Positions 5,525-49,908 of a stretch of 64,000 nt of DNA are shown one piece after another. This stretch comes from Gordonibacter sp. 28C (lineage in GTDB: Bacteria; Actinomycetota; Coriobacteriia; Coriobacteriales; Eggerthellaceae). The stretch lies in contig NZ_PPTR01000014.1 of the NCBI RefSeq assembly GCF_003339845.1, positions 1-64,000 on the forward strand. The letters are read 5' to 3'. Position numbers and translations under genes: made by a program. Under the pieces are notes generated by a model. The model made no database searches and was not told the origin of the DNA. It saw only the letters and a program-made list of their open reading frames with translations. How positions within the stretch are numbered: position 1 is the first letter of the stretch; each line of letters starts with the position of its first letter.

Positions 5525-6943
5525 ATGGATATCGACGAGGCGGCAGCGCCGCAATCCCCATACGAGAACCCCGAGGGCGACCCCGCTCCCTCCGCGGACG
5601 GCGAAGAGCATGGCGACGAGCCCGTCGGCCTCGTCATGGCGGAACCCGAACCGGAGCCCGAGCCGCCCAAGCCGCGCGTCATCGTCATGCACGCGTCGGT
5701 CGGCTCGGGCCATCGCAGCGCGGCCATGGCCGTGGCCCAGGCCCTCGAGCTGCTGCGCGACGAGGCGGCGGCGAGGCGGCGGAACGCCGCGGACGGCGTC
5801 GACGAGGACCCGCTCGTCCCCGAGGACCTGGAGGTCGAGGTCGTCGACATCCTGGAGTGGGGGCGCATCGTGTTCGACGGCGACCACGCCGCATCGCTCT
5901 TCACGGGAGCTACCCGTCCCATCTACGACCTCACCTGGCGTTTCACGCTCACGGGCCGCTTGCTGTGGGGCGGAGGCACCGTGTGGTCGCGCGTCATGTA
6001 CCCCGCCTTCACCGACCACGTGCGCGAGGTGCGGCCCTTGGCCGTGGTGTGCACGCACATCACGGCGGCGAACGTGGCCGTGGGCGCGCGCATGCTCTCG
6101 GGCGTGGAGTTCCCCATCGTCTGCGTGCCCACCGACTACGAGACGGAGGGGCTCTGGCCGCATCGCAGCGCCGATTTGTTCTGCGTGGCGAACGAGTCCA
6201 TGGCCGAGACGCTGCGCCCGCGCAAGGTGGGCGACGAGCGCATCCTCATCACGGGCATCCCCACGCGCGAGGACTTCCGCCGCACCTACGACCAGCGCGC
6301 GACGCGCGAGCGCCTGGGGCTTCCGCTCGACAAGACCGTGGTGCTGGCGCTGGCCGGCGCGCAGCTCCCCCGCCCCTACGTGCACTTCCGCGAGGCGCTC
6401 GACAAGCTGCTGCCCTACGTGCACGCGCTTTCGGACATGCACTTCGTGCTCGTGGCGGGCAGCGACGCCGAATACGCGCGTCACCTGCGTCACGAATGCA
6501 CCGAGCTGGGGCTCTCCAACGTCACCGTGCTCGACTACGTGGAGGGCATGGCGGCGCTCATGGCGGCGAGCGACCTGGTGATCTGCAAGTCCGGCGGCCT
6601 GGTGGTCACGGAATGCCTGTGCGCGCAGGTGCCCATGATCCTGCTGGGCCGCGCCTACGGCCAGGAGAAGGTGAACGTGCTCATGCTCACCGCCGTGGGC
6701 GCGGCGATGCACGTGACCACGTCGCGCGAGCTCTTGGACGCCTTGCGGCACATCGAGAAGAACCCGGAGAGCATCCGGTCCATGCTCGTCAACGGCAGGT
6801 TCCTGCGCCACGAGTCCGCCGCGCGCGACGTCGCGCACGCCGCGCTGGAACTTGCCGCGCATCCCAAAAAACCCGACGACCCGCTGCGCAAGAGGCACTT
6901 CATGGGCTTCTACTGGGGCGGGAAACCCGCGCATATGCGCTAA
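5525..6943 (+). CDS. MGDG-synthase-like glycosyltransferase (GT28 family)
   Basis: The protein of about 472 residues has an N-terminal MGDG-synthase motif, VIVMHASVGSGHRSAAMAVAQAL, around residues 47-69. The C-terminal GT28 half carries GSDAEYARHL, then the nucleotide-sugar site SDLVICKSGGLVVTECL. Such enzymes transfer a hexose from UDP- or GDP-sugar to diacylglycerol at the inner face of the membrane, making glycolipid. The N-terminal ~45 residues are acidic and proline-rich. Start is uncertain: ATGs occur at 5513, 5516 and 5525. A TATGAT at 5512-5517 would put the RNA start at about 5525, favouring that ATG as leaderless. The helicase gene follows 27 bases later. Confidence 0.8.
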   Translation: MDIDEAAAPQSPYENPEGDPAPSADGEEHGDEPVGLVMAEPEPEPEPPKPRVIVMHASVGSGHRSAAMAVAQALELLRDEAAARRRNAADGVDEDPLVPEDLEVEVVDILEWGRIVFDGDHAASLFTGATRPIYDLTWRFTLTGRLLWGGGTVWSRVMYPAFTDHVREVRPLAVVCTHITAANVAVGARMLSGVEFPIVCVPTDYETEGLWPHRSADLFCVANESMAETLRPRKVGDERILITGIPTREDFRRTYDQRATRERLGLPLDKTVVLALAGAQLPRPYVHFREALDKLLPYVHALSDMHFVLVAGSDAEYARHLRHECTELGLSNVTVLDYVEGMAALMAASDLVICKSGGLVVTECLCAQVPMILLGRAYGQEKVNVLMLTAVGAAMHVTTSRELLDALRHIEKNPESIRSMLVNGRFLRHESAARDVAHAALELAAHPKKPDDPLRKRHFMGFYWGGKPAHMR

Positions 6944-47716: not shown

Positions 47717-48205
47717 ATGGACGTGACGTATTCGACGAGCGAGGGACGATTCAACTACCGGGTGGGCGCGGTTGCGGTCGACGCGGGGCGGCTGCTCGTC
47801 ATGCGCGATTGGCACTGCCCTTACCTTTACCTGCCCGGCGGCAAGGTGGAGCTCCACGAAACGGCGGAGGACGCCGTGCTGCGCGAGCTGCGGGAGGAGA
47901 TGCAGGCGGAGGCGCGCATCGTGCGGCCGTTGTGGCTCAGCCAGGCGTTCTTCACCGAAGACGCCAGCGGAGAGCGGTTCCACGAGCTGTGCCTCTACTT
48001 CCTGGTGAGCCTGCCCGACTCCCTTTTGCCCTCGCACGGCGAAACGTTCTCGCGCGAGGAGAACGGGCGGCGGAACTCCTTTTTCTGGCTGCCGTTCGAG
48101 CAGCTGGAGCGGGAGTACCTCCACCCCTCGTTCGTCAAGTCCGCGATATTCAACCTGCCCGAGCACTTGGAACTGGTGAGCGAGAGCGAGTTGCTTCTAG
48201 CATAG
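47717..48205 (+). CDS. Nudix hydrolase
   Basis: The 162-residue protein carries the Nudix box GGKVELHETAEDAVLRELREEMQ (residues about 41-63), with one variation (final G replaced by Q). It resembles the (d)NTP/ADP-sugar pyrophosphatase branch; the substrate cannot be told. ATG after AAAGGCGG. Monocistronic. Confidence 0.9.
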   Translation: MDVTYSTSEGRFNYRVGAVAVDAGRLLVMRDWHCPYLYLPGGKVELHETAEDAVLRELREEMQAEARIVRPLWLSQAFFTEDASGERFHELCLYFLVSLPDSLLPSHGETFSREENGRRNSFFWLPFEQLEREYLHPSFVKSAIFNLPEHLELVSESELLLA

Positions 48206-48303
48206 ATTCAGTCGTTTCGGCCCGCATGATTCTCATTTTCTTGCGTCGTATAGTATTATTATATATAATTAATACTATTGAACGAAACGAGGGAGGCGGA
48301 GGC

Positions 48304-48849
48304 ATGGACAAAACGGAACTCGTTGACAAGCTTGCTCGCGTTGACGAAGATGCGTTCTTCTCCGGAGTTGGGCGGGACGGTCGCAAGGTGCGGGTGATCG
48401 TCGTTGGAGCGAGCGCCCTTTTGCTGAACGACCTGTCGGCAACTCAGAAAACGAAAGACGTTGACATTTTCGAAGCGGAATCGTCGGTACGCGAGTGCTT
48501 GTACCGCGACCCGGACTTCAACTCGCAGTGCCAGGCTTTCTGCTCCTGCCTCCCCTACAACTTCGAGGACAGGTTGGTGGAAATCGGGCTCGACACCATG
48601 TCGATAACGTATCAAACTCCTTCCGTGGAGGATTTGGCGGTAATGAAGCTCTATCGTTGGGAGGACCCCGACAAAGCCGACCTAACTGCCGAGGGTTTCC
48701 TCTCCAAACTCGACTGGCAACAGCTCGATTACCTTGTTCACGATCCGAGCGAAGCCGCCGCTTCGAGATCGGTCCCTCCCGAGCGCGACCGGGAGTTCCA
48801 GAACTTGCTGCACAACTACGACGAATACCGAAAGGAGTGGAGAAGATGA
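48304..48849 (+). CDS. Nucleotidyltransferase-fold protein (DUF6036/AbiEii-like)
   Basis: The 181-residue protein has a minimal nucleotidyltransferase core: VRVIVVGASALLLNDLSATQKTKDVDIF (residues about 28-55). The GAS turn and the DVD carboxylates correspond to the GS...DxD motif of the fold. Later come EIGLDTMSITYQTPSVEDLAVMKLYRWEDPDKAD and a final helix, as in AbiEii/DUF6036 proteins used as toxins or phage-defence effectors. GC content is clearly below the surroundings and an AT-rich promoter patch precedes it. GGAGGCGGAGG is the ribosome site. It overlaps the next gene by ATGA. Confidence 0.75.
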   Translation: MDKTELVDKLARVDEDAFFSGVGRDGRKVRVIVVGASALLLNDLSATQKTKDVDIFEAESSVRECLYRDPDFNSQCQAFCSCLPYNFEDRLVEIGLDTMSITYQTPSVEDLAVMKLYRWEDPDKADLTAEGFLSKLDWQQLDYLVHDPSEAAASRSVPPERDREFQNLLHNYDEYRKEWRR

Positions 48850-49373
48850 GGGGGAGCTTCGGCCATTTTCTCCTCGGATACTGCCAGGAGCTTACCGGGT
48901 GCGACGGCACCTCAAGCCTGAAACGCCTCTTTCAGGCTATGCGCTCGAACAATCCGCGCGCCGCCGAACCGTTGCTGCTGCTCGCCCTTTGCCAAGGGCG
49001 CGAAGGATATCTTCTGAAAACGGCTTCGAATACGAAAGTGGAATCGTCCTACCGTGCTTTCCTGTCCGATTATCGCGAATCCGGCAAAGCGCTGGAAACG
49101 TACCTCGACACCCTTCCGGAAGGAAACCGCTTCAAGAAAGCCTACGTTGCCTGGCAAGCGGAGCGAACCCGACTCCAGCGCGATCGGCTCACGCTCGAAA
49201 ACGTAAGCAGAGACATAAGCGAAATGCTTGACGAGAAGAGGATTTCTCGTGCCGATGCCTGCCGTGCTCTGAGTTTGAACAAGGGAAACTTCTACGCGTT
49301 TCTCAAGGGGGATACTTCGAAGCTGAGTCGCAAAACCGCCGTCGATGCCTACAAAAAACTCGCGAACATCTAA
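48846..49373 (+). CDS. HTH-tailed partner of the nucleotidyltransferase
   Basis: The 175-residue helical protein has a C-terminal helix-turn-helix (RISRADACRALSLNKGNFYAFLKGDTSKLSRKTAVDAYKKL). The N-terminal three quarters is helical with Arg/Glu-rich coiled segments, unlike any family I recognise. It is translationally coupled (ATGA) to the nucleotidyltransferase gene and shares its lower GC. Predicted to neutralise and autoregulate, like an antitoxin, but in the reverse order to abiEi-abiEii. Confidence 0.65.
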   Translation: MRGSFGHFLLGYCQELTGCDGTSSLKRLFQAMRSNNPRAAEPLLLLALCQGREGYLLKTASNTKVESSYRAFLSDYRESGKALETYLDTLPEGNRFKKAYVAWQAERTRLQRDRLTLENVSRDISEMLDEKRISRADACRALSLNKGNFYAFLKGDTSKLSRKTAVDAYKKLANI

Positions 49374-49398: not shown

Positions 49399-49908
49399 AT
49401 GGCTAAGGTGCTGGTGCTGGTAAGGCACGGGAAGGCGCAGAAGCGCTCCGCCGACGTGCCCGACGAGCTGCGCGCGCTCACAGAGGCCGGGCGGAAGGCG
49501 CTCGCCGCCCATCTGCCGCAGGCGCTCGCGCTGCTCGACGTCGCGGACGGGCCGGACGTCGCGGTGCTCGCAAGCCCGGCCGTGCGGACGAGGCAGACGG
49601 CCGACGAAGTCGCGAAGGCCCTAGGCGCCGGGGCGCCCGTCGACTGCGAGAGCCTTTTCGCCCAGGACGCCGAATCGTTCATGCAGGATGTCGCGAACGC
49701 GTCGGCGGACATCGTGGTGGCCGTGGGGCACAACCCGTTCGCGGAAGAGCTGACCGAACGGCTCTGCGGGGCGCGCATCGGGTTCTCGACCGGGGCGATG
49801 GCGGCGATCGAGCTGTCCGAGGACACGGACGACGGAACCGCACGGCTCCTTTGGTTCGTGCAGGGACCCCGGCCGCGCCCGTCGTTGAAAGCGACGGCCC
49901 TCCGGTAA
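49399..49908 (+). CDS. SixA-like histidine phosphatase
   Basis: The 169-residue branch-2-type histidine phosphatase begins MAKVLVLVRHGKAQKRSADVPD with the catalytic RHG, then VLASPAVRTRQTADEVAKAL and the second catalytic His in VAVGHNPFAEEL. SixA dephosphorylates phosphohistidine on HPt or PTS proteins; small homologues can act on other phosphoesters. AAGGCGGC precedes the ATG. GC content returns to the genome norm. Confidence 0.9.
   Translation: MAKVLVLVRHGKAQKRSADVPDELRALTEAGRKALAAHLPQALALLDVADGPDVAVLASPAVRTRQTADEVAKALGAGAPVDCESLFAQDAESFMQDVANASADIVVAVGHNPFAEELTERLCGARIGFSTGAMAAIELSEDTDDGTARLLWFVQGPRPRPSLKATALR

Follow-up and report, generated by a model that had tools for sequence, protein, structure and literature searches.

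A DUF6036 nucleotidyltransferase and a helical helix-turn-helix partner as a probable toxin-first toxin-antitoxin cassette in Gordonibacter sp. 28C

Introduction

Toxin-antitoxin (TA) systems built around a nucleotidyltransferase (NTase) are already known. In AbiE, a type IV TA and abortive infection (Abi) system composed of AbiEi (COG5340) and AbiEii (DUF1814, COG2253), the toxin is an NTase marked by G..., (S/T)xDxD, K, and D motifs, and its two-gene operon also encodes a DNA-binding antitoxin, which recognizes inverted repeats and acts as a repressor of its own promoter (PMC3985639). In the MenAT systems of mycobacteria (MenT1 to MenT4), the toxicity of MenT1 requires D41, K137, and D152, part of a T39/D41/K137/D152 pattern (PMC10435456), and the threonine two residues before the first aspartate is auto-phosphorylated in MenT1 and MenT3; in MenT1 this residue is T39, modified upon antitoxin action (PMC11375011, PMC10435456). 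Small NTases of the DUF1814 superfamily also lie beside predicted regulators in the COG4849-COG4861 pairs, in which the regulator gene precedes the NTase gene (PMC3985639).

Here, we describe a two-gene locus of Gordonibacter sp. 28C (class Coriobacteriia) within a 64,000-nucleotide stretch of contig NZ_PPTR01000014.1, the whole of which is referred to below as the window. Its first gene encodes a member of DUF6036, a family labeled in Pfam as a "nucleotidyltransferase of unknown function"; the literature searched yielded no mention of DUF6036 or PF19502 and no experiment on it. Judged from sequence comparisons, the pair is probably a toxin-first, two-gene TA cassette, with the DUF6036 NTase as toxin and the downstream helix-turn-helix (HTH) partner as antitoxin. 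What is new in this proposal is the toxin-first order and the antitoxin fold.

Results and Discussion

The NTase open reading frame (ORF; positions 48304-48849, + strand) encodes 181 amino acids and is followed by the partner ORF (48846-49373, + strand; 175 amino acids), the stop of the former overlapping the start of the latter in the tetranucleotide ATGA. A sequence-only reading had given these coordinates and this junction correctly, and had also noted a drop in GC content, which we likewise find: the pair has a GC of 0.57-0.58, the minimum of the window, against roughly 0.62-0.69 on both sides. It is flanked by genes that we take, from reading their sequences, to be NUDIX-like (47717-48205) and SixA-like (49399-49908). 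A genome search returned one copy of each gene of the pair in the host. Elsewhere in this genome are three matches to true AbiEii-family proteins, including G000:C4:28893-29573 and G000:C12:341840-342529.

The NTase matches DUF6036 (PF19502) with E = 1e-31 and 110 bits against a gathering cut-off of 23.6, and the same family is matched by all 30 aligned homologues. Thirteen residues are invariant among these 30 sequences (D14, G35, A38, T50, D52, D54, R90, E109, D110, K115, L116, D123, and D126). The GAS...DVD motif of the sequence-only reading lies at the right place and can be refined to GASALLLNDLSATQKTKDVDI, which holds G35, A38, T50, D52, and D54. The AlphaFold2 (AF2) model (pLDDT 95.9) has an NTase-type fold, for which Foldseek returned weak NTase matches only, among them the mycobacterial toxin TglT/MenT3 (E = 0.37) and ANT(2'')-Ia. 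The succession of TxDxD, then K, then D is the active-site order of the MenT/AbiEii type and is invariant in the 30 sequences; loss of catalytic acidic residues in orthologues, which would have counted against a toxin, was seen in none of them. Sequence searches of the PDB with the proteins gave chance matches only, and PADLOC and NCBIfam held no family for either the NTase or the partner. A single weak PADLOC match of protein P0001 to pAgo (E = 0.01) was dismissed as chance.

How close the enzyme stands to AbiEii depends on what is compared. The designation "DUF6036/AbiEii-like" holds for DUF6036 and, with respect to fold and active site, for AbiEii, but fails at the level of family: aligned with hhalign, the NTase and AbiEii profiles gave E = 0.015 and a probability of 3%. 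Against AbiEii proteins from the same family of bacteria, hhalign placed TxDID on TMDID, with K115 out of register. The window NTase, which is shorter and not recognized by the AbiEii model (PF08843), had no match to that family, and 3 of 30 relatives had one (best E = 0.002); the partner had no match to AbiEi. As the sequence-only reading had remarked, the gene order is the reverse of abiEi-abiEii, with the NTase first here and the antitoxin gene first in AbiE, and the partner is not of the AbiEi type: AbiEi joins an N-terminal winged HTH to an AbiEi C-terminal domain, whereas the partner joins a new helical body to a C-terminal Cro/C1-type HTH. Membership in AbiE was rejected on all three counts of sequence family, partner fold, and gene order.

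The catalytic residue set is that of the MenTs, whose phosphorylated threonine corresponds to the invariant T50, although MenTs belong to another Pfam family than DUF6036. MenT antitoxins are diverse and unrelated, and the partners of DUF6036 enzymes are similarly swapped outside the class. The domain plan of the partner here matches no MenA type in PMC11375011, from which it is set apart by description (MenA1 being small and helical, MenA3 and MenA4 having a winged HTH). The KLYxxR of the NTase resembles motif III of COG4849, KLxAaxxR (PMC3985639), but the COG4849-COG4861 pairs differ in that the regulator gene, there in front, lies behind the NTase gene here, and in their partner domains, again set apart by that paper's description. 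Outside the class, two DUF6036-like NTases (L165:2-998 and L166:3335-4521) are each overlapped by a different, probable regulator gene. These pairs are alike in that the enzyme adjoins a probable regulator, which in L166 starts with a Cro/C1-like HTH; they differ in that the regulator lies upstream, carries its HTH at the N-terminus, and has no match to the partner profile. That DUF6036 enzymes are joined to other proteins there counts against the TA reading.

Since TxDxD-K-D is invariant, as in MenT1, and the TxDID and TMDID motifs align between the NTase and AbiEii profiles, we propose that the NTase would transfer nucleotides onto RNA. By analogy with MenT and AbiEii, the most likely acceptor would be the 3' end of tRNA, and the result would be a stop of translation.

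The partner is all-helical in its AF2 model (pLDDT 96.8). Its last ~60 residues superpose on the HTH domains of Xre, HipB, and C-proteins when the model is compared with known structures, and no credible structural counterpart to the first ~115 residues came up either in the PDB or in viral models, so that the description of this protein as a C-terminal HTH on an unrecognized helical body was borne out. In sequence, the HTH_26 match of this copy is weak (E = 0.013), and HTH_26 is found at E <= 0.05 in 27 of 41 relatives (best 1e-7). The only residues invariant among 41 homologues, N148 and S161, both lie within the HTH.

An all-helical protein beside a small NTase also calls to mind the reverse polarity, as in HEPN-MNT (type VII) systems, in which small NTases are the antitoxins (PMC11586414): the NTase would AMPylate the partner, and the helical protein would be the toxin. 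We rejected this reading as highly improbable. The partner lacks a HEPN-type R-x4-6-H motif, and neither R nor H is invariant anywhere in the 41-homologue alignment, its invariant positions being confined to the HTH; its C-terminal part is a DNA-binding domain by fold match to Xre and HipB; and it persists intact without the NTase at 23 loci, under purifying selection where this is measurable, which a free toxin should not do. With the partner as antitoxin, its novel N-terminal body would bind and block the NTase, with or without phosphorylation of T50, and the ATGA junction, through translational coupling, would set the ratio of the two proteins.

An AT-rich promoter ahead of the pair, suspected from sequence, is indeed predicted at 48241-48269 on the + strand, with a weak -35 element (TTGCGT, 48241-48246), a 17-bp spacer, and a perfect -10 element (TATAAT, 48264-48269); a consensus promoter scan lists another, overlapping site at 48230-48259. 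Overlapping the -10 element is an operator-like palindrome, ATAGTATTA-N11-TAATACTAT (48250-48279, no strand assigned), a perfect 9+9 bp inverted repeat. The 9-mer AATACTATT at 48271-48279, the conserved core of this palindrome, is the sole AATASTATT in the 64 kb (0.01 expected). Across the class, an AT-rich palindrome of the same words recurs as AGTATTATT...AATAATACT or as GAATAGTATTC, within ~60 bp or less of most NTase starts. Operator words precede 26 of the 33 NTase genes scored but occur in just 3 of 464 AT-rich background windows and in 3 of the full set of 3,887, a very large gap even though the motif was read off the very sequences scored and the Fisher p value is inflated accordingly. 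Because the cassette has no other conserved DNA-binding protein, the partner is the obvious candidate to occupy the predicted operator, and we infer that it binds this palindrome. Binding of its C-terminal HTH over the -10 box would repress the operon, making the partner an autorepressor as well as an antitoxin. A palindrome at the operon promoter is, at the level of sequence, what an autoregulated TA system has.

The pair was surveyed in 398 genomes of the class. The NTase occurs in 47 of these (32 genera) and the partner in 65 (37 genera), and at each of the 34 loci where the NTase is near full length, the partner gene comes directly after it, in most cases with an overlap of 4 or 13 nt. The two proteins co-diverge (correlation of identity matrices, r = 0.89, against a maximum of 0.35 in 2,000 permutations). 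A phylum sample searched with the partner profile returned the partner inside the class only. At locus L017 (1489-2583), an additional A within a stretch of A residues places NTase and partner in a single 365-amino-acid frame, which may be a sequencing error or a natural fusion and was left out of the evidence. At L075, an intact cassette is closely preceded by an HTH fragment (6318-6746) that looks like another copy of the partner and is perhaps the relic of a solitary one.

The genes flanking the pair vary from locus to locus, indicating unrelated sites, and its spread is patchy. Universal chromosomal conservation, which would have spoken against an acquired cassette, does not apply: the pair is absent from the four other genomes of the genus, and its site is empty in the closest congener, G074, where the flank is 94% identical. 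There, the NUDIX-like gene is followed by a short unrelated stretch and then by what seems to be left of a SixA-like gene after an internal deletion, an arrangement that implies insertion or loss of the pair between two conserved genes. In place of the pair, G074 carries an inverted-repeat element with TCATCCTGAGC ends (L160:4501-5400), next to the SixA-like gene that looks internally deleted.

Scans of viral contigs with the NTase and partner alignments and a tblastn search of plasmids gave no relatives of the pair. A search of a phage collection gave one match, the 4-kb faecal contig MT839758.1, which contains the end of the NTase and the partner (L195:3-2629). Directly after the partner is a large ORF that we read as a presumed serine recombinase, an arrangement that suggests a mobile carrier of the pair. 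The contig is filed as a phage ("Bacteriophage sp.", unverified) but, holding the pair and the serine-recombinase-like ORF, is not clearly one.

The surroundings of the pair also bear on the second half of the sequence-only reading, a dedicated phage-defense module in which infection would free the toxin and cause abortive infection. Such a role is compatible with the TA reading, and AbiE, with its related mechanism, is itself an Abi system (PMC3985639). Among 101 flanking genes, we found a type IIG enzyme twice, PtuA once, AbiEi once, PIN three times, and ParE three times, raw counts in a set of mostly housekeeping or transport genes. With housekeeping, TA, and restriction genes all present, the neighborhood lends defense no specific support, and the repeated loss of the toxin with retention of the partner (see below) is explained at least equally well by addiction and anti-addiction. 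We therefore regard a dedicated defense role as possible but doubtful.

The pattern of loss also bears on which protein is which. At 23 loci, an intact partner remains where the NTase is gone, truncated, or frameshifted, a count that leaves out L093, cut by a contig end and included in the full list of 24; the reverse, an intact NTase without a partner, occurred 0 times in the sampled class. Remnants at L070, L095, L096, L100, L108, L109, L111, and L112 show that these loci formerly held an NTase. At L104 (5370-6044), an internal deletion has kept the NTase start and reduced the gene to a 29-codon mini-ORF (MDKAELISKLNRVDEGVFFSETLQEGWRR) between an intact operator and a coupled, intact partner. 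Some loci share a site and differ in the enzyme (L065 with the NTase versus L107 to L110 without; L072 with it versus L101, L116, and L117 without), and therefore the NTase was lost in place. Grouping by site and genus, by eye and without a tree, suggests that the NTase was lost independently about 14 times and the partner 0 times from loci where the NTase is intact. Just two partners are broken, L097 and L098, and both stand without an NTase. Where dS was measurable, solitary partners had dN/dS values of 0.04-0.28, indicating purifying selection. This pattern, of a useful, harmless partner and an enzyme unable to persist on its own, fits the prediction for an antitoxin and a toxin.

Another explanation would dispense with toxicity: the partner would be an HTH repressor of an ordinary NTase that modifies a small molecule or drug, as ANT enzymes do, or a cellular protein. 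The presence of ANT(2'')-Ia among the weak structural matches would suit it, as would the operator words within 200 bp of 14 of the 24 partners listed as solitary (L093 among them), the operator being retained as by an ordinary regulator. However, an intact NTase was never found without the partner, though the partner often stands without an intact NTase; the cassette has a patchy distribution at unrelated sites; and a repressor deprived of its only enzyme target should decay, where strong purifying selection is seen instead. We therefore consider an ordinary NTase unlikely, although some solitary partners could be regulators instead of antitoxins.

Taken as a TA system, the locus presents the general features of one: a coupled two-gene operon at unrelated sites, whose partner is tolerated alone (23 loci) and whose intact NTase, in the sampled class, is never alone (0). 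The toxin-antitoxin half of the sequence-only reading is thus well supported by comparative genomics, through recurrence of the unit in 32 genera, the operator, the catalytic residues, and one-sided loss. From these we infer toxicity of the NTase, neutralization by the partner, a tRNA target, and operator binding by the partner. More speculatively, and with considerable reserve, the cassette might represent a new class of NTase TA system, with an undescribed helical HTH antitoxin that possibly forces auto-phosphorylation of Thr50, and with solitary antitoxins kept together with their operator as stand-alone anti-addiction immunity against incoming copies.

If the TA reading is true, it would give a function to the unnamed DUF6036 family in gut actinobacteria and would add a toxin-first type of NTase TA system whose antitoxin has a new fold. 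Loci with the cassette intact, frameshifted, internally deleted, or reduced to a solitary partner, some of them at the same site, would then form a natural series for testing anti-addiction by retained antitoxins.
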